Source: Marasmitruncus massiliensis (GTDB lineage: Bacteria > Bacillota > Clostridia > Oscillospirales > Ruminococcaceae). Taken from it: 64,000 nucleotides of DNA. A model generated the notes under the pieces. It saw only the letters and a list, made by a program, of their open reading frames with translations, did no database searches and was not told where the DNA came from. This document shows, piece by piece, positions 6,659 through 42,448 of this stretch. The DNA lies in contig NZ_FYDE01000005.1 of assembly GCF_900186535.1 (NCBI RefSeq), forward strand, positions 1,650,895-1,714,894, given 5' to 3'. Positions within the stretch are counted from its first letter, which is position 1, and the number at the start of each line of letters is the position of its first letter. Made by a program: the position numbers and the translations under genes.

Positions 6659-6751
6659 TATGATAAAATCCGGGCGGTAATGCGTCCGTTTGCAGCACGA
6701 CCATCCGGGTTTTTCTGAGGAAACAGCATGAATTTTCAGGGAGGGGATCAT

Positions 6752-7861: not shown

Positions 7862-7877
7862 TTTGAGGTGCGTTGTT

Positions 7878-9197: not shown

Positions 9198-9231
9198 AAG
9201 GCGCTGTTTTAGGAAGGAGAGGACCGGTTTG

Positions 9232-27090: not shown

Positions 27091-27129
27091 CGGGAACAAC
27101 TTCCTGTATGGCGGTTGTTCCCGGTTTTT
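27091..27129 (+). terminator. Intercistronic terminator-like hairpin
   Basis: CGGGAACAAC (27091-27100) pairs with GTTGTTCCCG (27114-27123), followed by GTTTTTTAT. It is in the same place, after the binding-protein gene, as the hairpin in the first CUT1 operon. Confidence 0.75.
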
Positions 27130-27152
27130 TATCAAAGGGAGGAGACAAAAAA

Positions 27153-28070
27153 GTGCAAAAATCGACAACTTTGCCGGTGGCAGGCCGCAGCAGGCACTTT
27201 TACAAAGTGAAAGACTCAGCCATTGGCTATTTGTTTTTGCTGCCGTTTTTATTTTTTTATGCTGTGTTTAGTTTATACCCGATGGTGCAGGGATTTGTTA
27301 TTAGCTTTTTCAAGTGGAATATAACAGGCGCAAAAACCTTTGTTGGGATTGCCAATTACGCCAAACTGTTTCAGGATCCGGTTTTCTGGAAAGCCTTGAC
27401 GAATACGCTCGTGTATGTCTTTGTCTCGACGCCAATCTTCATGTTGGGTTCTCTCATCTTAGCGTTGATTGTAGATAGTAAAATGCTTCGGGGTAAAACG
27501 TTCGTTCGCTCTACGTTTTTTCTTCCTAACATACTTGCCGTATCAATTACAGCTGTAATATGGCTGAATATTTTTCAGCCTTACACGGGGCTTATGAATG
27601 CGGCCACACACGCCTTGGGCGTTAAAAATGAAATATTCTGGCTTAGCAACCTCAGCCTTGTATGGCCTTCTATCATTCTGGTAACCTTTTGGTGGAACAC
27701 AGGGTACTATATGCTCATCTATCTTGCGGGTCTGCAGGAGATCCCTGTCGAGCAGTACGAGGCTGCATCTATTGACGGAGCTACTGGATTTCAGCGTATT
27801 TGGCGTATTACCGTACCCTGCCTGAAGCGTACACATTTGCTTGTTCTTTTTCTTCAAGTAATTGCTTCCTTCAAAATATTTGGGCAGGTCTTTTTAATTA
27901 CGGAAGGAGGCCCCGGCGGCGCAAGCCGGACGCTTCTACAGTACATTTACGAGACGGGATTTACAACTTTCCAAATGGGGCAGGCATCTGCCGCATCTTT
28001 TATCCTGCTGGCGATTATCCTTATTGTCTCCTTATTTCAACTTAAAATTATGAATAAGCAGGAGGACTGA
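27153..28070 (+). CDS. Second CUT1 importer, permease (MalF-type)
   Basis: A 305-residue permease with six predicted helices and the EAA loop VEQYEAASIDGATGFQRIWRITVP. GTG 27153 follows GGGAGGAG at the proper distance, while the longer frame starts inside the hairpin. It is followed immediately by its partner permease. No ATPase gene accompanies it. Confidence 0.92.
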   Translation: MQKSTTLPVAGRSRHFYKVKDSAIGYLFLLPFLFFYAVFSLYPMVQGFVISFFKWNITGAKTFVGIANYAKLFQDPVFWKALTNTLVYVFVSTPIFMLGSLILALIVDSKMLRGKTFVRSTFFLPNILAVSITAVIWLNIFQPYTGLMNAATHALGVKNEIFWLSNLSLVWPSIILVTFWWNTGYYMLIYLAGLQEIPVEQYEAASIDGATGFQRIWRITVPCLKRTHLLVLFLQVIASFKIFGQVFLITEGGPGGASRTLLQYIYETGFTTFQMGQASAASFILLAIILIVSLFQLKIMNKQED

Positions 28071-28072
28071 CA

Positions 28073-28912
28073 GTGGAAAAAACTAATAAAAAGTTTTATA
28101 CGGAATGGCTGTTCAATCTGCTTACATATGGACTTTGCATCCTATGGCTTGTTCCGATTGTCTGGATGGCTGTTGTAACATTTAAGCCGGAATCGGTGGA
28201 TGTTACAAAGGTATCAAACTGGTTTCAGCCTCCGTTTACGCTGGAGAATGTCAAAGCGGTCCTCAATCATCCACAGGCGGATGTATTTCGATGGATTGCG
28301 AACAGTGCCATTATTTCCACGATTACCACATGTGGAGTTTTGCTGATATGCACTCTTGCCGCTTTTGCATTTTCACGCATTTCATTTCGAGGAAAAAATA
28401 TTTTGTTTATAGTTATCATGGCGGGGATGATGATTCCGCGTGAGGCTACACTTGTGCCACTTTACACACTATTCCAAAGTACAGGTATGCTAAACACAAG
28501 ATTTTCCCTCATTGCGCCTTCTCTTGCTGCGCCGTTTGCTATTATAATACTTAAAAACTTCTTTGACGGATTACCTAATGCGCTTTTTGAAGCGGCCCAA
28601 ATTGATGGCTGTGGCTGGTTTCGCACATGTTTTGGAATTGCAGCACCGCTATCAAAATCTGCCTTATCATCTTTGGCTATTCTCGTTTTCATGCAGAGCT
28701 GGAATGACTTTTTGTGGCCGTTTATTTCGATTACTAAACCAGAACTGGTAACAATCCCTGTCGGGCTTCCGGTTTTCCGTTCACAATATCTTACCGGTAT
28801 GGGGTTAACTATGGCGGCAGGTGCACTGCTTGCTGCTCCTATTATACTTGTTTTTATTGTTTTTCAAAAGAATATTGTGAAGGGAATTGCTTCTGCAGGC
28901 ATCAAAGGCTAA
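28073..28912 (+). CDS. Second CUT1 importer, permease (MalG-type)
   Basis: A 279-residue permease with the EAA loop NALFEAAQIDGCGWFRTCFGIAAP and the MalG-type C terminus VFQKNIVKGIASAGIKG. GTG 28073 has GCAGGAGG just upstream and lies two bases after the previous stop. Last recognisable gene of the operon. Confidence 0.92.
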   Translation: MEKTNKKFYTEWLFNLLTYGLCILWLVPIVWMAVVTFKPESVDVTKVSNWFQPPFTLENVKAVLNHPQADVFRWIANSAIISTITTCGVLLICTLAAFAFSRISFRGKNILFIVIMAGMMIPREATLVPLYTLFQSTGMLNTRFSLIAPSLAAPFAIIILKNFFDGLPNALFEAAQIDGCGWFRTCFGIAAPLSKSALSSLAILVFMQSWNDFLWPFISITKPELVTIPVGLPVFRSQYLTGMGLTMAAGALLAAPIILVFIVFQKNIVKGIASAGIKG

Positions 28913-29544: not shown

Positions 29545-29560
29545 TTCGTTTAACAAACAA
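29545..29560. promoter_or_regulatory. Second LacI-type operator motif (copy 1 of 4)
   Basis: TTCGTTTAACAAACAA, in the leader of the second LacI gene, matches TTTGTTTAATAAACAA in 14 of 16 positions. The motif recurs at 30654, 30805 and 30839. Confidence 0.6.
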
Positions 29561-29582: not shown

Positions 29583-30596
29583 ATGACGATAAGAGAGCTG
29601 GCCAAATTGATCGACGTTTCACCGGCTACGATTTCGATCGTTTTGAACAGGAAAAAGGGTGTCAGTGAAGAAACCCGCAAAAGGGTGCTTGAAGCGATAG
29701 AAACTCATCACTATATGCCGTCGGTTCAAAAAGTCGGCAAAACAAAAAGCGTGCTTTTGATGAAATACTGCAAAAGCGGTATGTTCGTGGAAGAAAACCA
29801 GGGTTTTATTTCTATGATCATCGATTCTATTGAGGAGCAACTGCGCATGGAGCATCTCGGTATGACCATGATGGTGGCAAAAACCGAGCTGAAAGCAGCC
29901 TTGAATGCGATCGATTACAGCAAATACTGCGGTATGATCGTCATTGCGACCGAGATCATGGAGGATAGTTACAGTGTGCTGCAAAGTATTCCCATCCCGT
30001 TCGTTGTAGTGGACAATACGGTGCCTAATTACGGGTACAACAGCGTTTGTATGAACAATTACGAAAATGTCTGGATGGCGCTGCAATATTGCCGGGAATG
30101 CGGCCATACCGAGATTGGCTATCTGGGAAGTATCTCCGACACCGAGAACTTCAAAGCGCGTTGCAAGGCATTCCGGATGTATGTCCCGGAATTCGGATTC
30201 CACTTTGATGAAAAATGGGAATTTCGTGTCACCCCAACGATGCTGGGCGCACATGACGATTTTATGAGCATCCTGGAAAAGAAGCCGGAACTGCCCTCCT
30301 GCTTTTTTGCGGAGAATGATACCATTGCCCTCGGCGTAATGAAGGCAATGAAGGAGGAGGGGTATAAGATTCCGCGCGATATTTCAATTATTGGGTTTGA
30401 TGATATTCCCTATGCTTCCATCAGCTCACCGACGCTCACAACGGTACATGTGCAGCGGAACATCATGGGCAAGCAGTCGGTGTTCCAGCTGTTGCAGCTG
30501 ATGGCGGACCCAAGGTTCAACCCGATAAAAACACGAATCACCGGCCGCCTTATGGTGCGCGACAGCGTAAAAGATCTGCGAAACAGCGAAAATTGA
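29583..30596 (+). CDS. LacI-family transcriptional regulator
   Basis: A 337-residue regulator. The HTH reads TIRELAKLIDVSPATISIVLNRKKGVSEETR, the effector domain is of the periplasmic-binding-protein type, and DISIIGFDDIPYASISSPTLTTV is conserved near the C terminus. ATG 29583 follows GGGGGAAAGG. It is transcribed in the direction of the long sugar operon, but a strong terminator separates them. The repeated TTTGTTTAATAAACAA sites upstream of itself and in the operon promoter suggest that it represses both. The effector is likely the operon's sugar or its phosphate. Confidence 0.93.
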   Translation: MTIRELAKLIDVSPATISIVLNRKKGVSEETRKRVLEAIETHHYMPSVQKVGKTKSVLLMKYCKSGMFVEENQGFISMIIDSIEEQLRMEHLGMTMMVAKTELKAALNAIDYSKYCGMIVIATEIMEDSYSVLQSIPIPFVVVDNTVPNYGYNSVCMNNYENVWMALQYCRECGHTEIGYLGSISDTENFKARCKAFRMYVPEFGFHFDEKWEFRVTPTMLGAHDDFMSILEKKPELPSCFFAENDTIALGVMKAMKEEGYKIPRDISIIGFDDIPYASISSPTLTTVHVQRNIMGKQSVFQLLQLMADPRFNPIKTRITGRLMVRDSVKDLRNSEN

Positions 30597-30610: not shown

Positions 30611-30657
30611 AAGATAGCCTAAATCGCTTTTAAGCGATTTAGGCTATCTTCTTTTTG
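30611..30657 (+). terminator. Terminator of the second LacI gene
   Basis: A 19-base perfect inverted repeat, AAGATAGCCTAAATCGCTT (30611-30629) and its complement (30632-30650), is followed by CTTTTTG. Confidence 0.85.
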
Positions 30658-30669
30658 TTTAATAAACAT
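30654..30669. promoter_or_regulatory. Second operator motif (copy 2)
   Basis: TTTGTTTAATAAACAT matches the motif in 15 of 16 positions. It lies just after the lacI terminator and about 150 bases upstream of the operon promoter, a position suited to an auxiliary looping site. Confidence 0.6.
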
Positions 30670-30780: not shown

Positions 30781-30809
30781 TTGACAAGTTAAGGAAATAG
30801 TCGTATTGT
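30781..30809 (+). promoter_or_regulatory. Promoter of the DHAP-shunt-like operon
   Basis: TTGACA (30781-30786), a 17-base spacer and TATTGT (30804-30809). The -10 box is embedded in an operator copy. Confidence 0.7.
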
Positions 30810-30820
30810 TTACCAAACGG
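30805..30820. promoter_or_regulatory. Second operator motif (copy 3, over -10)
   Basis: ATTGTTTACCAAACGG is the weakest copy (11 of 16 positions) but keeps the GTTTA..AAAC core. It overlaps the -10 box. Confidence 0.5.
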
Positions 30821-30838
30821 AACCTATATGTTCCAACG

Positions 30839-30854
30839 ATTGTTTAATAAACAA
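30839..30854. promoter_or_regulatory. Second operator motif (copy 4, at the ribosome site)
   Basis: ATTGTTTAATAAACAA matches in 15 of 16 positions and includes the perfect palindrome TTGTTTAATAAACAA. It lies about 30 bases after the expected transcription start and runs into the AAAGGAGG of the binding-protein gene. Confidence 0.65.
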
Positions 30855-30872
30855 AGGAGGAAAAGACGTTTT

Positions 30873-32072
30873 ATGAGGAATTTTAAAAGGATTATCAGCC
30901 TGATTATTGTGGCGGCCATGGCGGTCTCGATGCTAACTGCCTGCGGCGGCACCACCGCGTCGCCCGCACCCGCATCCGCACCCTCAACATCTTCACAGGG
31001 CAGCTCCGCCCCGGCGGCCCCCACTGCTTCTGCGGATAACCCGGTACAAGGCAAGAAGGTAGCCTACATTATGCTGCTTCCTTCGGCAACCATCTTCCAG
31101 ATGTGGAAGGATTCCTGCGCAAAGCTGTGTGATTCGCTTGGCGTTCAGTTTGACTTCTTCTTCTGCGATGGCGACTTCAATAAGTGGCAGGATACCATCC
31201 GTACTTGTGCATCCGCAGGGTACGACGGTTTGCTGGTCAGCCACGGCAACCAGGATGGTTCCTATGTCTTCCTGAAAGAGATCACGGAACAGTACCCCGA
31301 CCTGAAGATCGCCACGTTTGATACCCAGTTCTATACTGACGGCGCGTACCAGAAGATTCCCGGCATAACCCAGATGTTCCAGCAGGATCAATCTCTTGTC
31401 ACCGTTCTGCTGGACCAGATGGTCGAAAAATATGGCGAAGGTGTTCGCCTCATCAAGGTTTGGAGAGGCCCGAACTACAACAGCCCGTTCGATCGCCGCG
31501 AAGTAGGCTGGCAAGAGTATGAAAAGGCCGGCAAGATCAAAACTGTCGGAGAGATCCAGCCGCTGCAGGATTCTGTAGATTCTGCCAATACCGTTACTGC
31601 GGCTTATCTGCAAAGCGTCAAGCGCGAAGATGTGGACGGCATCATTGCCTACTATGATATGTATGGTCAGGGCGTTTACAATGCGATCATCGAAAATGAC
31701 AATTTCAACGGCAAAAATGGTGAAGCCCTGCCGATGGCCTCCGTTGATATCGATCCGGTTGACGTAACCAATATGCAGACCAATCCCGAGATCTGGTCCG
31801 CGGCAGGCACCACTGACTGGACCATGAACGGCCAGATTGGAATGCGCATTCTGCTGCTGGAGCTGGCTGGCGAGTATGACAAAATCTACGACCCCGCGAC
31901 AGGTAAGACCGGTGTGGATGTCGTTGAAGTTCCCGGCACTGCCGTTAAAGCAACCGATCTTAAACCGGATTCTACGGTGGAGAACCTCGGAGATGTGGCG
32001 GGAGAAACCTATGGAAACCTCGATTATCTGTCCGAAGCGGCATGGATGCCGAAAGAACTGCTTTACAAATAA
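30873..32072 (+). CDS. CUT2 sugar importer, substrate-binding lipoprotein
   Basis: A 399-residue binding protein of the RbsB type. The signal peptide ends MLTAC with the lipidated Cys24, then an Ala/Ser/Pro linker, then VQGKKVAYIMLLPSATIFQMW and GYDGLLVSHGN typical of periplasmic sugar-binding domains. ATG 30873 follows AAAGGAGG. It is larger than RbsB (about 300 residues). It is the first gene of the long sugar operon and would capture the monosaccharide (by context a pentose derivative) for the ATPase and permease that follow. Confidence 0.9.
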   Translation: MRNFKRIISLIIVAAMAVSMLTACGGTTASPAPASAPSTSSQGSSAPAAPTASADNPVQGKKVAYIMLLPSATIFQMWKDSCAKLCDSLGVQFDFFFCDGDFNKWQDTIRTCASAGYDGLLVSHGNQDGSYVFLKEITEQYPDLKIATFDTQFYTDGAYQKIPGITQMFQQDQSLVTVLLDQMVEKYGEGVRLIKVWRGPNYNSPFDRREVGWQEYEKAGKIKTVGEIQPLQDSVDSANTVTAAYLQSVKREDVDGIIAYYDMYGQGVYNAIIENDNFNGKNGEALPMASVDIDPVDVTNMQTNPEIWSAAGTTDWTMNGQIGMRILLLELAGEYDKIYDPATGKTGVDVVEVPGTAVKATDLKPDSTVENLGDVAGETYGNLDYLSEAAWMPKELLYK

Positions 32073-32135
32073 GGGAAAGGTATAAAAGCAGAGCTTGCTT
32101 TTGACGTCAGGATCCAAGGGAATGTGTCTGACACA

Positions 32136-32170
32136 GGAAACGTCGGGTTTTGCTCCGACGTTTCCTTTTT
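32136..32170 (+). terminator. Intercistronic terminator-like hairpin
   Basis: GGAAACGTCGG (32136-32146) pairs with CCGACGTTTCC (32154-32164), followed by six Ts. It lies between the binding-protein and ATPase genes, again directly after a binding-protein gene. Confidence 0.8.
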
Positions 32171-32202
32171 TAGAACTGACTTTAACTGAAAAGAGGAACT
32201 CT

Positions 32203-33741
32203 ATGGACCGAATTAAACTTGAGACGAGGCATATCTCGATAGAATTTCCCGGTGTCAAAGCGCTCGACGACATCAATTTTTCAGTATCAACCGGAGAGAT
32301 ACGCGCAGTCGTCGGAGCCAACGGCGCCGGAAAATCTACTTTGATGAAGGTGCTGGCGGGTGCAAACCCATCCTATACCGGCGAAGTGCTGCTGAACGGT
32401 GAAAAAGTCCAACTGAGGACGCCGGTCGATGCAAAAAAGCTTGGGATCCAGATAGTCTATCAAGAAGTGGATACCGCGCTGTATCCTACCTTATCCGTTG
32501 CAGAAAACATTGTTCAGAACGATATGCTCATGGGTACAAGCGGATACATTGTAGACTGGAGAAAGGTTTATAAGCAGGGGCGGTCGGCGCTGGACAAATT
32601 GCATATCAGCCGCGAGCAGATCGACGAGCACGCACTGGTCCAGAACCTGTCTTTGGCGCAAAAGCAGATGGTGCTTATCGCCAAGGCGCTGCAGGCGCGG
32701 TGCAGCTTTTTGATTCTGGATGAACCGACTGCACCGCTGAGCAATACCGAAACCGAAGAGCTGTTCAGGGTTGTCCGTTATTTGCACAAGACGGAGAATA
32801 TCGCAATTCTTTTCATCTCACACCGCCTGTACGAGATACTGGAGATCTGCGAAAACTATACGGTTATGCGTAATGGTAAGCTGATCGGCAGTGCGCCGGT
32901 CATCCCGGAGACGACGACCAAAGAGATCGTGGAAAAGATGCTGGGCCGCAAGTTTGAAGAGAACTTCCCGAAAGAGAAGTGCAACATAGAGGATACGCTG
33001 TTTGAGGTGGAGCATCTGTCCGGTGCGGATGGCAAGGTGAAAGACGTTTCGCTGTACGTTAGGAGAGGTGAGATCGTCGGTATCGCCGGTCTGGTCGGCG
33101 CGGGGAAATCCGAACTTTGCAAAACGATTTTCGGCGCTTATAAAAAGACTCACGGCAGACTGATGATGAAAGGCAAAGTGTTGAGGATCGCAAGCCCATC
33201 CGACGCCGTGAAACAGCGTATGGCCCTGGTGCCGGAAGAGCGCCGCAAAGAGGGCGTGCTGGTCAACGAAAACGTCAGCTTCAACCTGTCTGTCAACTGC
33301 CTGTCAAAGTTCTGCATCGCTTCTTTTATTAATAACAGGCGGGTAAACGAGAACGCCAGAGCCTATGTGGCGGACTTGGGGATCACAACCCCGTCCATCA
33401 GGCAGATGGTCCGCAACCTTTCGGGCGGGAACCAGCAGAAGGTGGCCGTGGGCAAATGGCTCGCGTCAGATTGCGACCTCTACATCTTCGACGAACCGAC
33501 CAAGGGCGTCGACGTCGGCGCAAAGCAGGATATTTTCCATTTGATCAATGAGATCGCAAAGCAGGGGAACGGTGTGATCTATGCTTCCTGCGAAAATTCA
33601 GAGCTTTTATCCCTGACGGATCGAATGTATGTGATGTACAACGGAGCAGTAATGGCGGAATTGGAAACCGCAAAAACAACAGAAGACGAGATCATGAACT
33701 ATTCTGTTGGCGGTAGGGTCGATCAGTGCCTGAATGTATAA
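32203..33741 (+). CDS. CUT2 sugar importer, tandem ATP-binding protein
   Basis: An RbsA/MglA-type protein of 512 residues with two fused nucleotide-binding domains. In the first, Walker A is GANGAGKST, the Q-loop YQEVD, the signature NLSLAQKQM, and Walker B LILDEPTAPLS. In the second, a weaker Walker A GLVGAGKSE, the signature LSGGNQQK and IFDEPTKGVD. ATG 32203 has AGAGGAA upstream. An earlier in-frame TTG would lie before the hairpin and is not used. It energises the permease that follows. Confidence 0.95.
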   Translation: MDRIKLETRHISIEFPGVKALDDINFSVSTGEIRAVVGANGAGKSTLMKVLAGANPSYTGEVLLNGEKVQLRTPVDAKKLGIQIVYQEVDTALYPTLSVAENIVQNDMLMGTSGYIVDWRKVYKQGRSALDKLHISREQIDEHALVQNLSLAQKQMVLIAKALQARCSFLILDEPTAPLSNTETEELFRVVRYLHKTENIAILFISHRLYEILEICENYTVMRNGKLIGSAPVIPETTTKEIVEKMLGRKFEENFPKEKCNIEDTLFEVEHLSGADGKVKDVSLYVRRGEIVGIAGLVGAGKSELCKTIFGAYKKTHGRLMMKGKVLRIASPSDAVKQRMALVPEERRKEGVLVNENVSFNLSVNCLSKFCIASFINNRRVNENARAYVADLGITTPSIRQMVRNLSGGNQQKVAVGKWLASDCDLYIFDEPTKGVDVGAKQDIFHLINEIAKQGNGVIYASCENSELLSLTDRMYVMYNGAVMAELETAKTTEDEIMNYSVGGRVDQCLNV

Positions 33742-33761
33742 ACGGGAGGAATAGGGTAGTT

Positions 33762-34751
33762 ATGATTAAGCAAAAAAATTCAATACAGAGTGTGACAAAA
33801 TTTCTGGTAAACTGGGCGGCAGTTTTGTCCCTCATCGCCTGCTTTATCGCATTCTCGGCCATCAAGGGCAGTGCCTTCATGTCAGGCAGCAATATGGTCA
33901 ATATTTTACGGGCAATGGCAATCAATACCGTGTTTGGCATTGCGGCTACCATGACCATGGCACCGGACGGCTTTGATATGTCCGCCGGCACGCTGGCAAG
34001 CTGCTCTGCGTATGTATTCGTGTCCTCCTACCTCTGGTTTGGGCAGTCGCTGGGCATGTCCATCATCATCTGCATCCTGGTCACGTTGCTGATGTACCAG
34101 CTCACGATGTTCTTAATTCTGATCTGCAAGATTCCCGACATGCTGGCGACCTGCGCGCTGATGTTCGTACATCAGGGCCTGGGCCAGTGGTATATCGGCG
34201 GCGGCGCGGTTTCTACCGGTATGAAGGCCCCCTGGGGCGCGGCCCCGGTGCGTACCACCCTGTCAGATTCCTTTTCCGCCGTCGGCCGCGCGCCTTGGAT
34301 TATCATCATCATGCTGGGCTGTGTGCTGGTGGCGTATCTGTTTTTGAACTTTACCAAGCACGGCCGGTACCTGTATGCTATGGGCGGAAACCGTGAGGCG
34401 GCCAAACTCTCCGGTATCAATGTTAAAAAGTATCGTTATCTGGCCGGCATGCTTACAGCTGTATTCATTGCCATCGGTGGCATTCTGGTCGCATCCCGCG
34501 GCAGCTCGGCCCAGGTTATGTGCTGTGACAACTACCTGATGCCTTCTCTGGCGGCGGTCTTTGTCGGCCGTACTGTGGGCGGCGCGGAAAAACCCAACGC
34601 GCTCGGCACCATGATCGGCTCGATGCTGGTTTCTACTCTGGAGAACGGCCTTACCATCTGTGCCGTGCCGTTCTATGTATTGCCCGCAGTGAAAGGTGCA
34701 GTGCTGGCGCTTGCGCTGGTCGCAGCTTATGCATCCAAAAAAGAGAATTGA
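33762..34751 (+). CDS. CUT2 sugar importer, permease
   Basis: A 329-residue RbsC-type permease with about eight to ten hydrophobic segments. It has the characteristic YAMGGNREAAKLSGINVKKYR cytoplasmic loop, and PSLAAVFVGRTVGGAEKPNA near the C terminus. ATG 33762 follows GGGAGG. It lacks some of the polar glycine-rich central motif of RbsC (DLSVG is DMSAG here). Works with the binding protein and ATPase upstream. Confidence 0.93.
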   Translation: MIKQKNSIQSVTKFLVNWAAVLSLIACFIAFSAIKGSAFMSGSNMVNILRAMAINTVFGIAATMTMAPDGFDMSAGTLASCSAYVFVSSYLWFGQSLGMSIIICILVTLLMYQLTMFLILICKIPDMLATCALMFVHQGLGQWYIGGGAVSTGMKAPWGAAPVRTTLSDSFSAVGRAPWIIIIMLGCVLVAYLFLNFTKHGRYLYAMGGNREAAKLSGINVKKYRYLAGMLTAVFIAIGGILVASRGSSAQVMCCDNYLMPSLAAVFVGRTVGGAEKPNALGTMIGSMLVSTLENGLTICAVPFYVLPAVKGAVLALALVAAYASKKEN

Positions 34752-34764
34752 GGAGGAATGAACG

Positions 34765-35988
34765 ATGTCCCGCTTTGATCATTATTTTCAGATGAATGTA
34801 TGCGACGTGATTGAATATACGCTTGAAAAAGTCAGGGAGATTGATTGGGACCTCGGTTCGATGGAAGCGATCGTGCCGAAATCTCACGGCAACCTGAACT
34901 ATGTCTACCGGGTCTGGGATGGAAAGGGCCATTCCATCTATATCAAACAGGCGGGTACCGAGACCCGAATCTCCAAGGATATGAAGCCGTCTACCGACCG
35001 CAACCGTCTGGAGTCCGAAATTATCATGTTGGAAGACAAATTTGCGCCCGGCATGGTGCCCCATATTTACTTCTTTGATACTGTCATGTGCGCCTGCGGC
35101 ATGGAGGACTGCTCAGATTATGTCGTGATGCGCGACGCTATGTTACAGCATGAGATCTTTCCGCGGTTTGCGGATGACATTTCCACTTTTATGGTTGAGA
35201 CTCTGCTGCTGAGCAGCGATGTGGTGATGGATCACAAGGAGAAAAAAGAGCTGATCCGCAAATTTATTTCTCCGGACCTTTGCGATATCACCGAAAAGCT
35301 GGTTTTAATGGAGCCGTACAACGACCTGAATCACCGCAACAATGTATTTGCACCCAATGCGGATTTTGTAAAAAAAGAGCTCTACTCCGACGAGAAGCTG
35401 CATCTTGAGGTGGCAAAGCTGAAATTCAAATTTATGACCGAGGCGCAGGCGCTGATGCACGGCGACCTGCATACCGGCTCCATCTTTATCCGGCAGGATG
35501 CCACCAAGGTGTTTGATTCCGAGTTTGGCACCTATGCACCGATGGGCTATGACGTGGGCAACGTGGTGGCCAACCTGATCTTTGCCTATGACAATGGCCT
35601 TGCGGCGGGTGCGGCGGCGTTTTGCGACTGGATTCTGAAGACCATCGAAAAGACGATCGATCTTTTTATCGGGAAATTCAGCGAGCGGTTCGACGAAGCC
35701 GTCACCGAACCGATGGCAAAGGTTCCGGGGTTCAAAGAGTGGTATCTGGAAGGCATCCTCAACGACACCGCCGGTTACGCCGGGACCGAGCTGCACCGCA
35801 GAACGGTGGGCATGGCAAACGTCGTGGATGTCACCACGATCGCCGACGAGAAGAAACGCCTGCTGGCAGAACGGATCAACATCTTTGCGGGAAAAGACTA
35901 CATCATGCATCAAAGTTCCTTCCGCACGGGCGCTGATTTTACTGCGGCGGTGAAAAAGGCGAAAGAAGCGGCAGAAAGGACGCTTTGA
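34765..35988 (+). CDS. mtnK: 5-methylthioribose kinase-family sugar 1-kinase
   Basis: A 407-residue kinase that closely follows MtnK, which phosphorylates 5-methylthioribose at C1 with ATP. HGDLHTGS (His232, Asp234, His236) is the MtnK form of the catalytic loop, and DSEF (Asp251, Glu253) replaces the DPEF metal site. GNLNYVYRV, LCDITEKLVLMEPYND and ELHRRTVGMANV are further landmarks. The segment after the metal site (GTYAPMGYDVG) differs from the FAFYGP usual in MtnK, so substrate preference may be shifted, for instance to 5-deoxyribose. ATG 34765 follows GAGGAGG. It should feed the MtnA-like isomerase encoded next. Confidence 0.88.
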   Translation: MSRFDHYFQMNVCDVIEYTLEKVREIDWDLGSMEAIVPKSHGNLNYVYRVWDGKGHSIYIKQAGTETRISKDMKPSTDRNRLESEIIMLEDKFAPGMVPHIYFFDTVMCACGMEDCSDYVVMRDAMLQHEIFPRFADDISTFMVETLLLSSDVVMDHKEKKELIRKFISPDLCDITEKLVLMEPYNDLNHRNNVFAPNADFVKKELYSDEKLHLEVAKLKFKFMTEAQALMHGDLHTGSIFIRQDATKVFDSEFGTYAPMGYDVGNVVANLIFAYDNGLAAGAAAFCDWILKTIEKTIDLFIGKFSERFDEAVTEPMAKVPGFKEWYLEGILNDTAGYAGTELHRRTVGMANVVDVTTIADEKKRLLAERINIFAGKDYIMHQSSFRTGADFTAAVKKAKEAAERTL

Positions 35989-36036
35989 CCTTTGCTGCGG
36001 CAGGTGACAGGGTCCAATATCAAACGAAGGGGATAG

Positions 36037-37143
36037 ATGATTATGACGGTGGATGATTTTTTCGACAAGGTCATTACGGTTCGTATGGCACAAGATAAAA
36101 GCGCGGTGGACATTATAGACCAGACGCTGCTGCCCGGCACGATCAAAAGGATCGAAATCCGGACGAAAGAGGAGGTCTGGGATGCGATCAAAAAGCTGAA
36201 AGTACGCGGCGCACCTGCTATCGGCGTTGCCGCCGCTTACGGTATCGCGCTGCTGGCTTCGCAGATCGATGAAAACAGCTACGATGCGTTTTATGCAAAA
36301 TTCCGGGAGCTGAAAGACTATCTCGCGTCGTCGAGGCCGACAGCGGTCAACCTGTTTTGGGCGCTGAACCGCATGGAGGATACTGTCCAGAGAAACCAGA
36401 ACAAAACAATTCCAGAGATCAAGGAGATTCTGTTTGTTGAGGTAGAAAAAATCCGCGAAGAAGACGTGCAGATCAGCAGGAACATCGGCGAGATCGGCTT
36501 TAGGCTTTTGAAAGAGCTGAAAAAAGACGGTCGCGAGATTGGTATTCTGACCCACTGCAATGCAGGCACGCTGGCAACGGCAAAGTACGGCACGGCGACC
36601 GCCCCGATGTACCTTGCGCTCGAAAAGGGCTGGGCCGGCACCGATATGCATGTCTACTGCGACGAGACGAGACCGCTTTTGCAGGGGGCCAGACTGACCT
36701 CGTTTGAACTGTACAATGCCGGCATCACCACCACCCTGCAGTGTGACAATATGGCCTCCATTTTAATGAAATCGAAAAAAATTGACATCATCTTTGTCGG
36801 TTGTGACCGGGTTGCGAAAAACGGCGATGCCGCCAACAAGATCGGCACCAGCGGCGTTGCTATTCTTGCAAAGCACTACGGCATCCCGTTCTATGTCTGC
36901 GCGCCCAGTTCTACCATTGACCTTGCGACTCCGACCGGCGAGGAGATTCCAATTGAGATGCGCGACCCCGACGAAGTGACTGAGATGTGGTATAAAGAGC
37001 GCATGGCGCCAAAAGGCATCGGGGTTTTTAACCCGGCTTTTGATGTGACGGATCATTCCCTGATCACCGGCATCATTACGGAAAAGGGCATGTGCCACTC
37101 ACCGTTCGACCAGGCGTTTGCAGCCCTTGGCATCGGGAGGTGA
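36037..37143 (+). CDS. mtnA: MtnA/DrdI-like aldose-1-phosphate isomerase
   Basis: A 368-residue member of the eIF2B-alpha/MtnA family, which converts 5-methylthioribose 1-phosphate (or 5-deoxyribose 1-phosphate) to the ketose 1-phosphate. Catalytic Cys174 is in ILTHCNAGTLAT, catalytic Asp267 in IIFVGCDRVAKNGD, and RGAPAIGVAAAYG marks the phosphate site. The ATG at 36037 is four bases after AAGGGG; the ATG at 36043 is an equal candidate. The next gene starts five bases after the stop. No methionine-salvage genes such as mtnB, mtnC or mtnD follow, so the ketose phosphate is not heading back to methionine. Confidence 0.92.
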   Translation: MIMTVDDFFDKVITVRMAQDKSAVDIIDQTLLPGTIKRIEIRTKEEVWDAIKKLKVRGAPAIGVAAAYGIALLASQIDENSYDAFYAKFRELKDYLASSRPTAVNLFWALNRMEDTVQRNQNKTIPEIKEILFVEVEKIREEDVQISRNIGEIGFRLLKELKKDGREIGILTHCNAGTLATAKYGTATAPMYLALEKGWAGTDMHVYCDETRPLLQGARLTSFELYNAGITTTLQCDNMASILMKSKKIDIIFVGCDRVAKNGDAANKIGTSGVAILAKHYGIPFYVCAPSSTIDLATPTGEEIPIEMRDPDEVTEMWYKERMAPKGIGVFNPAFDVTDHSLITGIITEKGMCHSPFDQAFAALGIGR

Positions 37144-37147
37144 GCGC

Positions 37148-37591
37148 ATGCTGAAAGGAATTCCGGCCTGTGTTTCTCCGGAGCTGCTGAAGGTACTGCA
37201 CGAGATGGGCCACGGGGACACCATCGTGATCGGCGACGCCAATTTTCCCGCAGCCGCGATGGCCGAAGCGAAAAACCATGTCAACATCCGCTGTGACGGC
37301 CATCGCGCGACAGAAATGCTGGAAGGCATTTTGCAGCTGCTTCCACTGGATGAATTTGTGCCCCGGCCGGTTACCATTATGGATAAGATGGAAATGCACC
37401 GCGACCTTGACTGTCCGGTATGGGACGAATTCAAAGATATTGTGGCAAAGTATGATACGCGCGGAGCGGATGCGGTGGGCTTTCTGGATCGGTTCGCATT
37501 TTACGAAGCGGCCAAAGATGCCTATGCAGTGGTATCCACTACGGAAACGGCTTTCTATGCCTGCATTATTCTGAGAAAAGGCTGCCTTTGA
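37148..37591 (+). CDS. RbsD/FucU-family sugar mutarotase
   Basis: A 147-residue protein of the RbsD/FucU family, which speeds interconversion of sugar anomers or ring forms. It opens LKGIPACVSPELLKVLHEMGHGDTIVIGDANFPA, with the His and Asp of the family in the GHGD and GDAN motifs, and ends with a conserved aromatic segment (ETAFYACIILRKG). The length fits FucU better than RbsD. ATG 37148 follows GGGAGGTGA, which includes the mtnA stop. It would present the right anomer of the imported sugar to the kinase. Confidence 0.9.
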   Translation: MLKGIPACVSPELLKVLHEMGHGDTIVIGDANFPAAAMAEAKNHVNIRCDGHRATEMLEGILQLLPLDEFVPRPVTIMDKMEMHRDLDCPVWDEFKDIVAKYDTRGADAVGFLDRFAFYEAAKDAYAVVSTTETAFYACIILRKGCL

Positions 37592-37634
37592 CCTTGTATT
37601 GAAATGACGGCCGATCATAAAAAGGAGACAAATT

Positions 37635-38288
37635 ATGCTTGAAGAGTTGAAAAAACAAGTCGTGCGGGTGGCCAAAGAAGCGGACCGGCTTGGTATGTGC
37701 AAACATAAATCCGGCAATTTCAGCATCTATGACCCCGCCACCGGCTATGTGGTTGTCACACCCAGCGGCGTGGCAAGAGAAGTACTTACTCCTGAACATA
37801 TCTGCGTGATGGACCTCGATGCCAACGTCATCAAATGGAATCAAATAAACAAACCCTCCAGCGAAACACTGATGCACCTTTCGATCTACCGGGAGCGGAA
37901 AGATGTAAGGGCTGTGGTGCATACCCATGCACGCTATTCCACGGCGTTTGCAGTCCTGAACAAGTCGATCCCTCCTATCGTATACGAATTTTCCTACATC
38001 GGAAAATGCGGCACGATCCCCGTTGCGCCGTATGGCCGGCCGGGCACTGCGGATCTTGCGGAAAAGGTGGCAAAAACCTTGAAAAATACCGATTGCTGCC
38101 TGATGGAAAGCCACGGCGCGATCGCCGTCGGTGACGATATTGACGACGCCTTTATCAAGGCTCAATACATAGAAGAGGTAGCAGAGCTGTACTACATTGC
38201 GCTTGCTGTCCGCAATGGGCAGGAACCGCCGATCCTTGCGGAGGAAGAGTTGGCAAAGTGGGCTTATCCGAAAGAAATCAAGTTTTAA
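37635..38288 (+). CDS. Class II aldolase (FucA/DrdA/Ald2-like)
   Basis: A 217-residue zinc aldolase of the FucA/AraD family. The catalytic Glu77 is in PSSETLMH; zinc ligands are His96 and His98 (VVHTHARYS) and His160 (ESHGAIAVG). Relatives cleave fuculose 1-phosphate, or in the DHAP shunt 5-deoxyribulose 1-phosphate or 5-methylthioribulose 1-phosphate, giving DHAP plus lactaldehyde, acetaldehyde or methylthioacetaldehyde. Placement after an MtnK-like kinase and an MtnA-like isomerase makes the shunt role the best reading. MtnB dehydratase has the same fold, but the rest of the methionine salvage route is missing. ATG 37635 follows AAAAAGGAG. Confidence 0.88.
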   Translation: MLEELKKQVVRVAKEADRLGMCKHKSGNFSIYDPATGYVVVTPSGVAREVLTPEHICVMDLDANVIKWNQINKPSSETLMHLSIYRERKDVRAVVHTHARYSTAFAVLNKSIPPIVYEFSYIGKCGTIPVAPYGRPGTADLAEKVAKTLKNTDCCLMESHGAIAVGDDIDDAFIKAQYIEEVAELYYIALAVRNGQEPPILAEEELAKWAYPKEIKF

Positions 38289-38386
38289 GCGTCCCGGGTC
38301 AGGCGGCGGTACCGCGCAGCATCTGCTGCACAGGGTCCGGCGGCCTGTATCCCCAAAGCCGCGTGAAAGGCAAAGGAGGATCAACA

Positions 38387-39382
38387 ATGAAAAAATTGAT
38401 CAATGCACCGGAAAACTACACCGATGATATGCTCCGCGGGATCTACGCCGCGCACCCGAGCATGGTGAAATATGTAAATAATGATCTGCGCTGCTATTGT
38501 ACGGCGCGCAAAAAGTCCGGAAAGGTCGCCATCATCACCGGGGGCGGCACCGGGCACCTGCCTCTGTTTCTTGGCTATGTAGGTGAAAACCTGCTGGACG
38601 GCTGCGGTGTGGGCGGAGTGTTCCAGTCCCCTTCGAGCGAACAGATTTATCATGTGGCGAAAGAGGTGGAAGCGGGCGCCGGCGTGCTGTTTTTGTACGG
38701 TAACTACACCGGCGATATTATGAACTTTGATATGGCGGCTGAGATGCTGGATATGGACGATATCGCGTCCCAAAGTATCGTAGGCGCGGATGATGTGCTT
38801 TCCAATAAAAATACGCATGCCCGCCGCGGTGTAGCCGGGATTTTCTTTCTGTACAAATGTGCCGGCGCAAAAGCAGCCGAGATGGGCAGCCTGGACGAAG
38901 TACTGGCGGCCGCGCAAAAGGCAAAAGAGAACACCCGTACTGTCGGCTTTGCCCTGACCCCCTGTGTCATTCCTGAACTGGGTCATTCCAATTTCACGCT
39001 TGCAGAGAATGAGATGGCGTTCGGCATGGGCATCCACGGAGAGCCGGGGGTATGGAACGGCCCCGTTAAAACGGCAGAAGAACTGGCAAAAGAATCCCTG
39101 GAAGAGATTTTGGCTGATATGCCGCTTGCTGCTGGGGAAGAGGTCTGCGTCCTCATCAACGGGCTCGGCGCCACCAGCCAGGAGGAGCTGTATATCCTTT
39201 CCGGCAGTGTGCGGCACATTCTCGACAGAAGGGGTGTTCGTACCTACCGCACTTTTGTAGGAGAATATGCCACCAGCATGGAGATGGCAGGCGCGTCGAT
39301 CTCAGTTTGCCGCATGGCGGATAAAGAAATGAAAGAGTGGATCGATATGCCGGCCCACACACCGTTTTATACGCAGGTTTAA
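38387..39382 (+). CDS. dhaK: Dihydroxyacetone kinase subunit DhaK
   Basis: A 331-residue DhaK subunit. GGGTGHLPLF (52-60) is the N-terminal substrate loop, and His217 in GIHGEPGVW is the residue that binds the keto group covalently. ATG 38387 follows AAAGGAGG; a longer frame begins inside the aldolase gene and is not credible. It works with DhaL encoded next. No DhaM phosphocarrier lies nearby, so the phosphoryl donor could be ATP through DhaL or a DhaM elsewhere. The substrate may be dihydroxyacetone or another ketose such as erythrulose; DHAP itself would come from the aldolase. Confidence 0.93.
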   Translation: MKKLINAPENYTDDMLRGIYAAHPSMVKYVNNDLRCYCTARKKSGKVAIITGGGTGHLPLFLGYVGENLLDGCGVGGVFQSPSSEQIYHVAKEVEAGAGVLFLYGNYTGDIMNFDMAAEMLDMDDIASQSIVGADDVLSNKNTHARRGVAGIFFLYKCAGAKAAEMGSLDEVLAAAQKAKENTRTVGFALTPCVIPELGHSNFTLAENEMAFGMGIHGEPGVWNGPVKTAEELAKESLEEILADMPLAAGEEVCVLINGLGATSQEELYILSGSVRHILDRRGVRTYRTFVGEYATSMEMAGASISVCRMADKEMKEWIDMPAHTPFYTQV

Positions 39383-39409
39383 ACCACAGCGCGGGAGAGG
39401 AGATGCAAG

Positions 39410-40048
39410 GTGGTGGACCGCATAAGTTATGAACAACTCGCGGATTTTTTTAAAGGAGTTGCAGAGATTTTTGCAGAAAAAAAAGAAGAACTTTGCGAAA
39501 TGGACGCAAAGATGGGAGATGGCGATCTTGGGCTTACGATGCAGAAAGGGTTCAGTGCGCTTCCTCGACTGATTTTGGAAAACGGAGCATCCGGAGATAT
39601 CGGTAAAACGCTTCGCAAGGCCGGCATGAAAATGGCGAGCCTCGTTCCTTCCACCATGGGTACGCTGATGTCCAGCGGCATTATGGAAGGCGGTAAGGCG
39701 GTCGGCGAAACGGCAGAGATGGGGCCGAAAGAGCTGTCTGCATTTTTGACCGGCTTTGCGGCGGGTATCCAAAAAAGAGGAAAATGTCAACCCGGCGACC
39801 GCACGATACTGGATGCTGTGGATACCGGAGCAAAAAAGGCAGAACAGGCGTACGCCGCCGGGGCATCTCTTGCCGGCGTTATGCAGGCGGCGGTGCAGGG
39901 CGCGGAAGAGGGTGTTGAGGCAACCAAAGAGATGTTGCCCAAATACGGAAAAGCCGCAGTGTTTTCCGCCAAGGCAAAAGGAGTTCCCGATCAGGGCGCG
40001 ATGGCAGGCAAATATCTGTTTGAAGGCTTGGCGAGGTACTTTGCATGA
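39410..40048 (+). CDS. dhaL: Dihydroxyacetone kinase subunit DhaL
   Basis: A 212-residue DhaL subunit, the nucleotide-binding half of dihydroxyacetone kinase. MGDGDLGLTM holds the Asp residues that bind magnesium, STMGTLMSSGI and GDRTILDAV follow, and KGVPDQGAMAGKYLFEGL closes the domain. GTG 39410 follows GGGAGAGGAG. The stop overlaps the next gene as ATGA, so the kinase that follows is translationally coupled. Confidence 0.92.
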   Translation: MVDRISYEQLADFFKGVAEIFAEKKEELCEMDAKMGDGDLGLTMQKGFSALPRLILENGASGDIGKTLRKAGMKMASLVPSTMGTLMSSGIMEGGKAVGETAEMGPKELSAFLTGFAAGIQKRGKCQPGDRTILDAVDTGAKKAEQAYAAGASLAGVMQAAVQGAEEGVEATKEMLPKYGKAAVFSAKAKGVPDQGAMAGKYLFEGLARYFA

Positions 40049-40953
40049 AAATTTTAAATTTCGGCTCACTCAATATTGATCACGTCTACCGGGTAGACCA
40101 TTTTGTGCGGAAAGGTGAGACGATTTCCTCCAAATCCCTGACGCTGTTTTGCGGCGGCAAAGGCCTTAATCAGTCGGTCGCGCTCGGGCGCGCCGGTGTC
40201 GAGGTCTGGCATGCCGGGAGCATCGGAAAAGACGGGAAAATCCTTCTTGATATGCTGGCATCTGCGAATGTGGATAGTTCCTGTGTTGCGGTACTGGAAG
40301 AGGTTAGAACCGGGAACGCGATCATTCAGAACGACTCTGAAGGAGACAACTGCATCATCCTGTACGGCGGGGCGAACCGGCAGATCACAAAGCGGCAGGT
40401 GGATGAAACCCTTGCGGGTTTTTCTGCCGGAGATTTTTTGGTGCTGCAAAATGAGATCAACGAGCTGGCCTACATTGTGCAGAGGGCGTATGAAAAAGGG
40501 ATGAAGATTGTTCTGAATCCTTCACCGATGGACGAAAAAGTGCTTGAGGTGAATTTGAAACTCATAGATTGGTTTGTTTTAAACGAAATCGAGGCAGGCC
40601 AGCTTACCGGAAGTACCAACCTGAAAAGCGATAAGCTGATTTCGCTGCTGCGGGACAAATTTCCACAAGCAAAAATCGTGTTGACTTTAGGGACACTGGG
40701 TTCCTGCTATGCCGATGCGGAACGGGTCGTCACTCAAGGTATCTACCCGGTAAAAACAGTCGACACTACTGCGGCGGGGGACACGTTTACAGGTTACTTT
40801 CTGGCAGGGGTCGTGCAGGGGCGCAGCGTAGAAGAATCCTTAGATCTCGCGGCAAGAGCATCGGCGATCGCAGTTTCGCGTTTAGGTGCAGCACACTCTA
40901 TCCCCGCGATGGAAGAAGTTCTGAATGATAGAGCGTATGACCTACTATCATAA
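40045..40953 (+). CDS. PfkB/ribokinase-family sugar kinase
   Basis: A 302-residue PfkB-family kinase. The first signature GGKGLNQSVALGRAG begins at residue 37; the second is DTTAAGDTFTGYF with the catalytic base Asp246. The ATG overlaps the dhaL stop (ATGA). It resembles ribokinase in layout but not closely enough to name a substrate. A kinase for a side product, or for a second sugar brought in by the same importer, is possible. Last gene of the operon, followed by a terminator about 70 bases downstream. Confidence 0.92.
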   Translation: MKILNFGSLNIDHVYRVDHFVRKGETISSKSLTLFCGGKGLNQSVALGRAGVEVWHAGSIGKDGKILLDMLASANVDSSCVAVLEEVRTGNAIIQNDSEGDNCIILYGGANRQITKRQVDETLAGFSAGDFLVLQNEINELAYIVQRAYEKGMKIVLNPSPMDEKVLEVNLKLIDWFVLNEIEAGQLTGSTNLKSDKLISLLRDKFPQAKIVLTLGTLGSCYADAERVVTQGIYPVKTVDTTAAGDTFTGYFLAGVVQGRSVEESLDLAARASAIAVSRLGAAHSIPAMEEVLNDRAYDLLS

Positions 40954-41027
40954 AGCCGTAATACCTTGATGTAGCAATCTGACAAAACTTCATAGCCAAT
41001 AGACCTCATCTTATTTTTTATATACGA

Positions 41028-41056
41028 AGCAGGCTTTATTATAAGCCTGCTATTTT
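41028..41056 (+). terminator. Terminator of the DHAP-shunt-like operon
   Basis: AGCAGGCTT (41028-41036) pairs with AAGCCTGCT (41043-41051) with a six-base loop, followed by ATTTTTA. Confidence 0.8.
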
Positions 41057-41412: not shown

Positions 41413-41743
41413 ATGCCGCCCGATGAAATGTCTGGAAGGAATGGGCCTTGCCGGAGATTGTGCGATTGTTACGAATGGCCGCTTTTCCGGTTCAAACCGG
41501 GGCTTATTTGTGGGACACATCTCGCCCGAAGCTTACGAGGGCGGTCCGCTTGCGCTGGTGAAAGACGGCGATAAAATCACCATCGATCTGCCAAACCGTG
41601 ACTTGCATCTGCATGTGGACGGACAGGAATTGAAGCGGCGTAAAGATGTATGGGTACCTCCGGAAAAGGAACTATTGAACGGTTATCTGAAAACCTATTG
41701 CAAAATAAGCAAATCGGCTGCGGAAGGCGCGGTCGTAGAATAG
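41413..41743 (+). pseudogene. C-terminal remnant of an IlvD/Edd-family dehydratase
   Basis: About 105 codons encode the end of a dihydroxyacid or sugar-acid dehydratase: CLEGMGLAGDCAIVTNGRFSGSNRGLFVGHISPEAYEGGPLALV, in pieces recognisable as the IlvD/Edd C-terminal domain, with IDLPNRDLHLHV afterwards. A full protein has about 550 residues. Just upstream, a GMPPDEM run like the family's GMPEM lies in another frame, so there is both truncation and a frameshift. Product not functional. It precedes the RraA-like gene by 12 bases, so the pair was probably a sugar-acid operon. Confidence 0.8.
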
Positions 41744-41755
41744 GAGAAATGTAAA

Positions 41756-42448
41756 ATGGCAATCAAATGGAACAATGATAGAGCGCTGTTCGACATGATG
41801 CGAAAAGAGCTGTATTCCTCAGTCGTTGGCGATATCTTGGATAAAATGGGCAGGCTGCACCAGTTCCTGCCATGGCGAATCCAGCCGCTCGCGGAAGATA
41901 TGGTGGTAGCGGGACGCGCAATGCCGGTATTGGAGGCAGATACATTTGAGGAATTATCCGATGGGCAAAACCCAATTTTGAAAAAACCGTTTGGACTGAT
42001 GCTGGAGGCTCTGGATGATTTGAAAGAAAGTGAAGTGTATATTTGCACAGGCGCCTCCCCTTGCTATGCACTGGTGGGCGAACTCATGTGTACGCGGATG
42101 CAGGTCCTTAAAGCATCAGGCGCTGTGGTCAATGGATTCCACCGCGATACAAAGGGTATTTTAAATCTGGGATTTCCGTGTTTTTCCTATGGCCGCTATG
42201 CACAGGACCAGGCACCGCGCGGAAAAGTCATTGATTTCCGCGTACCGATTGAGATAGAAGGAGTCCGGGTGGTACCGGGTGATATCGTATTCGGCGACTT
42301 AGATGGGGTAGTCATTGTCCCGCAGGATATTGAAGAGGAAGTGATTCAGCGCGCCTATGCAAAAGCAACCGGAGAAAAAATGGTGGCGGAAGCGATTCTC
42401 AGCGGGATGGGGGCAAAGGAATCTTTTGATCAATATGGCATTCTGTAG
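41756..42448 (+). CDS. RraA-family protein
   Basis: A 230-residue member of the RraA/HMG-aldolase fold. Landmarks are SSVVGDILDKMGRLHQFLPWRI at the N terminus, GELMCTRMQVLKASGAVVNGFHRDTKGI around the substrate loop, and VRVVPGDIVFGDLDGVVIVPQD near the C terminus. Relatives act as 4-hydroxy-4-methyl-2-oxoglutarate aldolases, oxaloacetate decarboxylases or sugar-acid enzymes; few are RNase E regulators, and none would be in this setting. AGGAGA precedes the ATG. With the dehydratase remnant next to it, a 2-keto-3-deoxy sugar-acid substrate is plausible. It appears intact although its partner is broken. Confidence 0.85.
   Translation: MAIKWNNDRALFDMMRKELYSSVVGDILDKMGRLHQFLPWRIQPLAEDMVVAGRAMPVLEADTFEELSDGQNPILKKPFGLMLEALDDLKESEVYICTGASPCYALVGELMCTRMQVLKASGAVVNGFHRDTKGILNLGFPCFSYGRYAQDQAPRGKVIDFRVPIEIEGVRVVPGDIVFGDLDGVVIVPQDIEEEVIQRAYAKATGEKMVAEAILSGMGAKESFDQYGIL

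Follow-up and report, generated by a model that had tools for sequence, protein, structure and literature searches.

The closest described relative of the locus analysed here is the dihydroxyacetone phosphate (DHAP) shunt, or 5-deoxyribose salvage (DrdK-DrdI-DrdA; mtnK-mtnA-ald2), in which a kinase, an isomerase and a class II aldolase are likewise encoded in one operon. Passages of PMC6079011 describe sugar-transporter genes in four drawn clusters of the DrdKIA type and a fucose-mutarotase homologue in one, that of Denitrovibrio, and an excerpt of PMC12632272 gives the E. coli DHAP-shunt operon (L123 here) a putative transporter. An mtnK-linked importer, MtrACB, is also in print; an excerpt of PMC3228920 names it as the probable 5-methylthioribose (MTR) transporter, uncharacterised as of 2011. 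Methionine salvage (mtnK-mtnA-mtnB-mtnC-mtnD) has its first two enzymes in common with our locus, the L-fucose pathway (fucU, fucA) the superfamilies of a mutarotase and an aldolase, and the DhaK-DhaL dihydroxyacetone kinase a two-subunit family. The locus itself is a plus-strand operon spanning positions 30781-41051 of a 64,000-nucleotide stretch of the Marasmitruncus massiliensis genome (contig NZ_FYDE01000005.1; the whole stretch is called the window below). We propose, with moderate confidence, that under LacI control it scavenges and catabolises 5-modified riboses from outside the cell, most likely 5-deoxyribose and/or MTR. To the DHAP shunt it adds LacI control, an MtrACB-type importer, a PfkB kinase and a DhaK-DhaL pair (DhaKL) whose DhaK carries the motif GHLP. 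The core shunt and the importer appear to be of known kinds, and their combination with a mutarotase, GHLP-type DhaKL and PfkB appears to be new; among the matches listed by a search of open-licence full-text literature (subscription journals and supplements lie outside its scope), no excerpt holds an mtnK-mtnA operon with DhaKL.

A first-pass annotation of this stretch had read its genes as a DHAP-shunt-like operon with its own importer, mutarotase and extra kinases. Its gene observation is confirmed, all genes named being present, in frame and in order, and its interpretation is partly supported, as set out below. Gene content, homology, conserved motifs, operator and synteny can be read from the sequence directly, and the operon is real and complete, framed by a promoter-like site and a terminator-like hairpin. 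The promoter-like site is sigma-70-like (TTGACA-17-TATTGT, 30781-30809, plus strand as are all features that follow, 10 of 12 positions matching), of a class that is not commoner than chance (14 in the region, shuffle mean 12.0, standard deviation 3.4). The genes then run from a lipoprotein sugar-binding protein (30873-32072; the start at 30873 is preferred, the listed open reading frame beginning at 30828) through the ATPase (32203-33741) and permease (33759-34751) of a CUT2-type ATP-binding cassette (ABC) importer, an MtnK-family kinase (34765-35988), an MtnA-family aldose-1-phosphate isomerase (36037-37143), a FucU/RbsD-family mutarotase (37148-37591) and a FucA/DrdA/Ald2-like class II aldolase (37635-38288) to DhaK-type (38387-39382) and DhaL-type (39410-40048) kinase subunits and a PfkB/ribokinase-family kinase (40045-40953). 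A terminator-like hairpin at 41028-41051 ends the operon. A second, strong hairpin of this kind (32135-32166) separates the binding-protein gene from the ATPase gene, which would suit production of the binding protein in excess; terminator-like sites as a class are commoner in the region than in shuffles (23 against a mean of 14.2, standard deviation 3.8).

What is the function of this operon? Both MtnK and MtnA exceed curated NCBIfam cut-offs (MTRK, 344 bits against 275; salvage_mtnA, 429 against 279), and with a class II aldolase encoded beside them the DHAP-shunt reading is well supported. The other enzymes match broader families: the mutarotase Pfam RbsD_FucU (139 bits; FucU model 103 bits against a cut-off of 141, RbsD 29 bits), the aldolase Pfam Aldolase_II and the proteins FucA and 6btd (fucA model 129 against 400), DhaK Pfam Dak1 (375 bits; DhaK model 340.8 against 406.25), DhaL Pfam Dak2 (134 bits; DhaL model 106.4 against 138.3) and the last kinase Pfam PfkB (163 bits; its best model, ribokinase, 234 against 300). 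Since these models stay under their cut-offs, they give superfamily membership only, and the named functions are not assigned. A fucose operon was rejected because the FucU and FucA models fall short, and neither a fucose isomerase nor a fuculokinase is found in the operon. Compared by operon genes only, the window also differs from aerobic methionine salvage, lacking mtnB, mtnC/W/X and mtnD and having an aldolase instead.

From this gene set we infer substrates, fluxes and the roles of the mutarotase, DhaKL and PfkB as follows. The importer would take up a 5-modified ribose, the FucU/RbsD protein would speed the exchange of its anomers, MtnK would make the alpha-1-phosphate, and MtnA would isomerise this to the ketose-1-phosphate. 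The aldolase would then split off DHAP for glycolysis; the two-carbon aldehyde that remains, acetaldehyde or 2-methylthioacetaldehyde, would be handled elsewhere in the cell. DhaKL and PfkB would act as accessory kinases. The MTR kinase binds the higher-energy alpha-anomer of MTR, a furanose (PMC2194712, section 11), which gives a mutarotase a job, and anomer exchange of the FucU/RbsD type would be a sensible partner for fast growth on an imported sugar. The dedicated importer and the mutarotase had both been called unusual at first; the mtnK-linked mtrACB, the transporters of DrdKIA-type clusters and the Denitrovibrio mutarotase homologue, all mentioned above, take that distinction away.

The kinase retains the features expected of its family. 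The HGD, DXEF and RR motifs are those of MTR kinases (an excerpt of PMC2194712), and when the pocket is mapped by alignment to B. subtilis MtnK, the window protein keeps HGD, DXE with the Phe that follows, RR and Leu180; the first residue of HGD is Gln in L002, L006 and L018. The flanking sequence GTYAPMGYDVG was initially taken as a sign of a new substrate, but with HGD, DXEF and RR intact and the same flank in mtnK-mtnA pairs that have no importer, it is no evidence for one. A suspicion of something new is fair where it rests on DhaKL and PfkB, not where it rests on MtnK. The question had also been raised whether the kinase belongs to methionine-salvage clades: its score exceeds the MTRK cut-off, and the MtnK tree is limited to close relatives, six forks in the window's 24-row group missing the 95/80 mark. 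The active-site Cys and Asp of MtnA align with those of 2yrf. Of the genomes with the 44 loci described below, 34, of unstated completeness, were searched, and every one gave a single MtnK match; the window genome has one full-length MtnK, with two weak partial matches elsewhere, and encodes a methylthioadenosine/S-adenosylhomocysteine (MTA/SAH) nucleosidase. Thus, the same kinase must also serve sugar made inside the cell.

The importer points in the same direction. In a tree of 32 permeases, a 100/100 branch separates 19 mtnK-linked rows from eight E. coli CUT2 references; 17 of these rows come from the 35 importer loci, one from Acetoanaerobium (L125) and one from Klebsiella aerogenes. The window permease lies among the 19, and the window ATPase is nearest to mtnK-linked ATPases. 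The binding protein belongs to Pfam Peripla_BP_4, and a profile of 21 binding proteins scores 352 bits with 5ulb and 195 with 4ry8, against 85 for the best ribose-binding protein, 2ioy; a Foldseek search with its AlphaFold model (mean pLDDT, the predicted local distance difference test, 85) ranks 5ulb first and 4ry8 second. The entry title of 4ry8 is '5-methylthioribose transporter solute binding protein', and 5ulb is a Yersinia sugar ABC transporter protein. The family alignment has 21 invariant columns, of which 20 (all but L372) were compared; 5ulb shares 19, Klebsiella MtrB 19, 4ry8 16, AlsB nine and RbsB eight, and because the columns were picked as family-invariant the contrast is informative and the absolute number is not. 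By these comparisons the binding protein is nearer to the 5-methylthioribose binding protein than to ribose-binding proteins, and the importer is of the MtrACB type, with a predicted substrate. A ribose operon was not our first choice, as permease and binding protein group with mtnK-linked importers and not with RbsC and RbsB. The Klebsiella importer adjoins mtnK, mtnA (annotated in two pieces), mtnB, an enolase-phosphatase gene and mtnD, that is, oxygen-using methionine salvage, whereas the window importer, of the same permease and binding-protein family, stands beside the aldolase route.

How widely is this arrangement conserved? When GTDB species genomes were scanned with the window MtnK protein, 44 loci (given L numbers here) were obtained. 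MtnA directly follows MtnK in 43 of them and a permease directly precedes it in 35; the order permease-MtnK-MtnA is not due to chance. Beyond this core, FucU/RbsD occurs in 12 of the 44 loci, DhaK plus DhaL in 16 and PfkB in 12, counts within the stretch examined that are lower bounds because several stretches stop at contig ends. (Longest-frame calling of open reading frames masked genes behind antisense frames in L024, L032-L034, L107, L108 and L146; L146 was re-read on one strand and by tblastn.) The second half of the operon is variable. An aldolase of the window type (at least 66% identity) occurs in L001, L002, L003, L018 and L039. The majority of the remoter loci carry other class II aldolases, as do L007, L008, L011, L012, L016, L024, L028 and L032. 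In L014, MtnA is followed by split transketolase genes and a RuBisCO-like protein (6669-9776); the same set, identified by clustering only, lies beyond a regulator gene in L011 (13543-16663), and the RuBisCO-like cluster is present in L033 too. The genes of L014 and L011 suggest an aldolase-free route for the ketose-1-phosphate. Seven close relatives (L004, L005, L016, L017, L019, L021 and L022) have mtnK-mtnA with no importer in the stretch examined, and these pairs fall within the window's 24-row MtnK group (support 100/100). Separately, a class II aldolase gene lies close to mtnK and mtnA in L124 (Lactobacillus intestinalis), L127 (Fusobacterium vincentii) and L128 (Enterococcus raffinosus), all catalogued as plasmids; judged by eye, the latter two also have a different kind of permease and an alcohol dehydrogenase of the iron type.

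A further variant comprises 11 loci with bacterial microcompartment (BMC) shell genes, recognised by clustering (L025, L026, L027, L030, L031, L035, L037, L040, L041, L042 and L044). In these the importer-MtnK-MtnA core is followed by a PRK15398-type, acylating-type aldehyde dehydrogenase, which we take to be EutE/PduP-like, and in most by a PTAC; the dehydrogenase cluster is common to 13 loci and the PTAC cluster to 10, one representative of each having been checked. Such a dehydrogenase is expected for an acetaldehyde-like product, and the variant is possibly a 5-deoxyribose microcompartment. Other aldolase-containing BMC types have been described (PMC8217296), and a methylthioribose kinase gene that adjoins a BMC cluster in A. 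woodii was called unrelated (PMC7593272), according to excerpts of these papers; the matches listed by the open-licence search include, in their excerpts, no BMC with methylthioribose/5-deoxyribose genes of this kind. The BMC relatives bear on a second reading of the window operon, in which MTR is the true substrate, its methylthio group is the aim and DHAP is a by-product. The kinship with MtrACB, a predicted MTR carrier (PMC3228920, in part), the title of 4ry8 and the MTA/SAH nucleosidase, by which MTR also arises inside the cell, all agree with such sulfur salvage. We nevertheless consider it quite unlikely, because the operon has no recognised gene that would deal with the methylthio fragment, the BMC loci point to an acetaldehyde-like product, and the window contains no match at or above the gathering score of any Rfam family, among them the SAM (S-adenosylmethionine) riboswitches.

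The feature that most clearly sets this operon apart is its DhaK. The first-pass annotation had counted three further kinases; as DhaK and DhaL are subunits of one kinase, the number is two. The window DhaK, and 16 of 16 DhaK proteins encoded near mtnK, read GHLPLFLGYVG where the E. coli and Lactococcus proteins read GHEPxH, and GHEP is found in both other DhaK proteins of the window genome. Do these genes simply supply a DHAP shunt with a standard dihydroxyacetone kinase and a standard ribokinase, so that one transcript serves two unrelated functions? The catalytic His and Asp and the covalent His of DhaK are all kept, as is the GDGD motif of DhaL, and in L011 PfkB-DhaK-DhaL lies on the opposite strand. 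Against this stand the uniform GHLPLF motif, the two GHEP-type DhaK proteins that the genome already has, the absence of a recognised DhaM in the operon and the DhaK and DhaL scores under their cut-offs, and we judge such a coincidence improbable.

Relatives of the aldolase and GHLP-type DhaKL also occur together in other settings. In genome G116 (L078:6709-15469), an aldolase 57% identical to that of the window, a GHLP-type DhaK (57%) and a DhaL lie under a phosphotransferase system (PTS) of the EIIC-GAT family, and in Olsenella profusa (L146:6273-16086) a PTS with EIIC-GAT accompanies an aldolase (55%), a GHLP-type DhaK (75%) and a DhaL (58%), while the mtnK-mtnA pair of that genome sits elsewhere, at L005. 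Conversely, relatives of the aldolase adjoin MtnK and MtnA in L147 and L148, and MtnA in L149, with no DhaKL in the stretch. By these arrangements the aldolase-DhaKL and aldolase-MtnKA pairings are separable, and the window operon joins them. Aldolase relatives in L150-L153 have none of the other operon enzymes in the stretch. Further GHLP-type relatives are accompanied by other importers, the motif being confirmed in L107-L114, L117 and L119 and not in L115, L116, L118 and L120-L122; L109 and L110 also have FGGY-type kinases (Pfam was used for L109 only), and no MtnK was found in G055, G476, G395 or G560, genomes with GHLP-type DhaK. Two side observations concern Olsenella: the L146 cluster is followed by a longer gene, part of which is DhaK-like, and a short match to the window aldolase (22% of the length, 49% identity), perhaps a remnant, lies directly before mtnK at L005:9769, the full-length relative of that genome being at L146.

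Our best inference is that DhaKL would phosphorylate either a hydroxyaldehyde set free in the aldolase reaction or a free ketose, making the latter usable by the aldolase. We tentatively extend this to a broader suggestion, which we hold to be possible but doubtful: that GHLP-type DhaKL, rather than being a dihydroxyacetone kinase, has a new specificity and is paired with the aldolase, acting on the released hydroxyaldehyde or converting a free ketose to the ketose-1-phosphate. The result would be an extended DHAP shunt that accepts a wider range of sugars and sends both halves of each into glycolysis, and the same pair would serve PTS-imported sugars in bacteria lacking MtnK. Among the matches listed by a full-text search of open-licence papers on new-substrate DhaK homologues and apulose-type pathways, nothing concerns the GHLP subfamily.

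Several observations weigh against assigning the operon to 5-deoxyribose or MTR. DhaKL and PfkB are superfluous for a textbook shunt, the operon has no recognised gene for an aldehyde dehydrogenase or reductase, and no aldolase was found in the stretch of importer loci L006, L009, L010, L013, L014, L015, L020, L023 and L041. FucU/RbsD, DhaKL and PfkB are seen only with the window importer type and in none of the 15 loci (of 35 with an importer) that have the other type (L025-L027, L029-L031, L033, L035-L038, L040-L042 and L044; in L029, L040 and L041 one side of the stretch is short). The window-type permeases sit on a long stem of 1.39 changes per site, identity of the binding protein to 4ry8 and 5ulb is 18-22% in the model match, and the 4ry8 ligand is known here from the entry title only. 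The L078 stretch has no MtnK or MtnA, and the G116 genome, reported to be 100% complete, has no MtnK. Finally, the window MtnK has lost the W-loop tryptophan, the loop being one residue shorter with Met at the Trp column (Lys in an ungapped alignment).

This tryptophan caps the 5-methylthio group and is termed semi-conserved (an excerpt of PMC2194712), and with regard to this hydrophobic cap the aligned window pocket departs from the classical MTR kinase. In a pocket table listing 40 of 45 kinases, the column is Met, Ile or Leu throughout the window's group, including the listed importer-less pairs, and in BMC loci L025-L027, L031 and L035; it is Phe in L033, L036, L037, L038 and L125. Trp stands there in L043, in Klebsiella, in the kinase of the E. 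coli shunt and in two more BMC loci, L040 and L041. Its loss as proof of 5-deoxyribose over MTR was dropped: the E. coli shunt kinase retains the tryptophan, yet E. coli with the DHAP shunt grows on 5-deoxyribose (PMC10986504, in part).

The long importer stem, the low binding-protein identity and the restriction of DhaKL, PfkB and mutarotase to one importer type also fit a shift of substrate, to a sugar with a hydroxylated tail, which could be a pentose (ribose or another) or a hexose read as a furanose. In that case a hydroxyaldehyde would be freed by the aldolase, DhaKL (with PfkB) would phosphorylate it, and both halves would enter glycolysis. The lost tryptophan, the contrast between the GHLP-type DhaK and the two GHEP-type proteins of the same genome, and the PTS-linked clusters of L078 and L146 speak for such a shift. 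However, mtnK-mtnA pairs without an importer have this kinase type too, as the sole MtnK found in their genomes, and the Olsenella genome does carry MtnK and MtnA. In addition, an excerpt of PMC6079011 reports that B. thuringiensis DrdK accepts 5-deoxyribose and MTR and rejects ribose, the importer pocket columns follow the MTR family, and L006, L014 and L018 combine importer and kinase without DhaKL in the stretch. We therefore regard a shifted substrate as unlikely and retain 5-deoxyribose and/or MTR as the proposed substrates.

Regulation is suggested by the gene that precedes the operon. A LacI-family regulator (29583-30596, plus strand), followed by a terminator-like hairpin of its own, has orthologues that adjoin the importer in relatives. 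Two exact copies of a putative operator, TTGTTTAATAAACA, lie at 30655-30668 and, just downstream of the promoter-like site, at 30840-30853, and a weaker copy with two mismatches (29546-29559) lies before lacI. The palindrome has five matches in the window, both strands counted; 100 shuffles gave 0.83 matches on average, and a single shuffle reached five. Similarly, TGTTTAnTAAACA occurs with at most one mismatch within 400 bases of the binding-protein start in all ten examined loci with LacI near (the window, L001, L002, L009, L010, L013, L015, L018, L020 and L039), although five of the ten are Lachnoanaerobaculum-type near copies, which add little weight to the count, and the lacI-like gene of L020 is not adjacent. 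At most seven of 300 single-base shuffles match as well in the LacI-bearing loci, whereas all five examined loci with no LacI near (L006, L007, L008, L011 and L014) match only with three to four mismatches, with at least 77 of 300 shuffles as good. A LacI-family protein thus probably controls the operon through this operator. Upstream of lacI (27108-28912) are two genes resembling CUT1-type sugar permeases by eye. Downstream (41423-42448), the C-terminal part only of an IlvD/Edd dehydratase gene precedes an RraA-like gene, in what looks like a decayed neighbour; as both lie beyond the terminator-like hairpin, they were excluded from the operon.

Finally, 5-deoxyribose and MTR are waste products of radical-SAM enzymes and of MTA-forming reactions. 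Excretion of MTR by E. coli (PMC3228920) and of 5-deoxyribose by Synechococcus (PMC8261047) is reported in excerpts of these papers. The changed-loop DhaK subfamily offers a testable entry to a possible new kinase activity. If an importer-fed DHAP shunt does operate in many anaerobes, whose oral, gut and rumen origin we judge from organism names, then excreted 5-deoxyribose and MTR would become a cross-fed carbon source.

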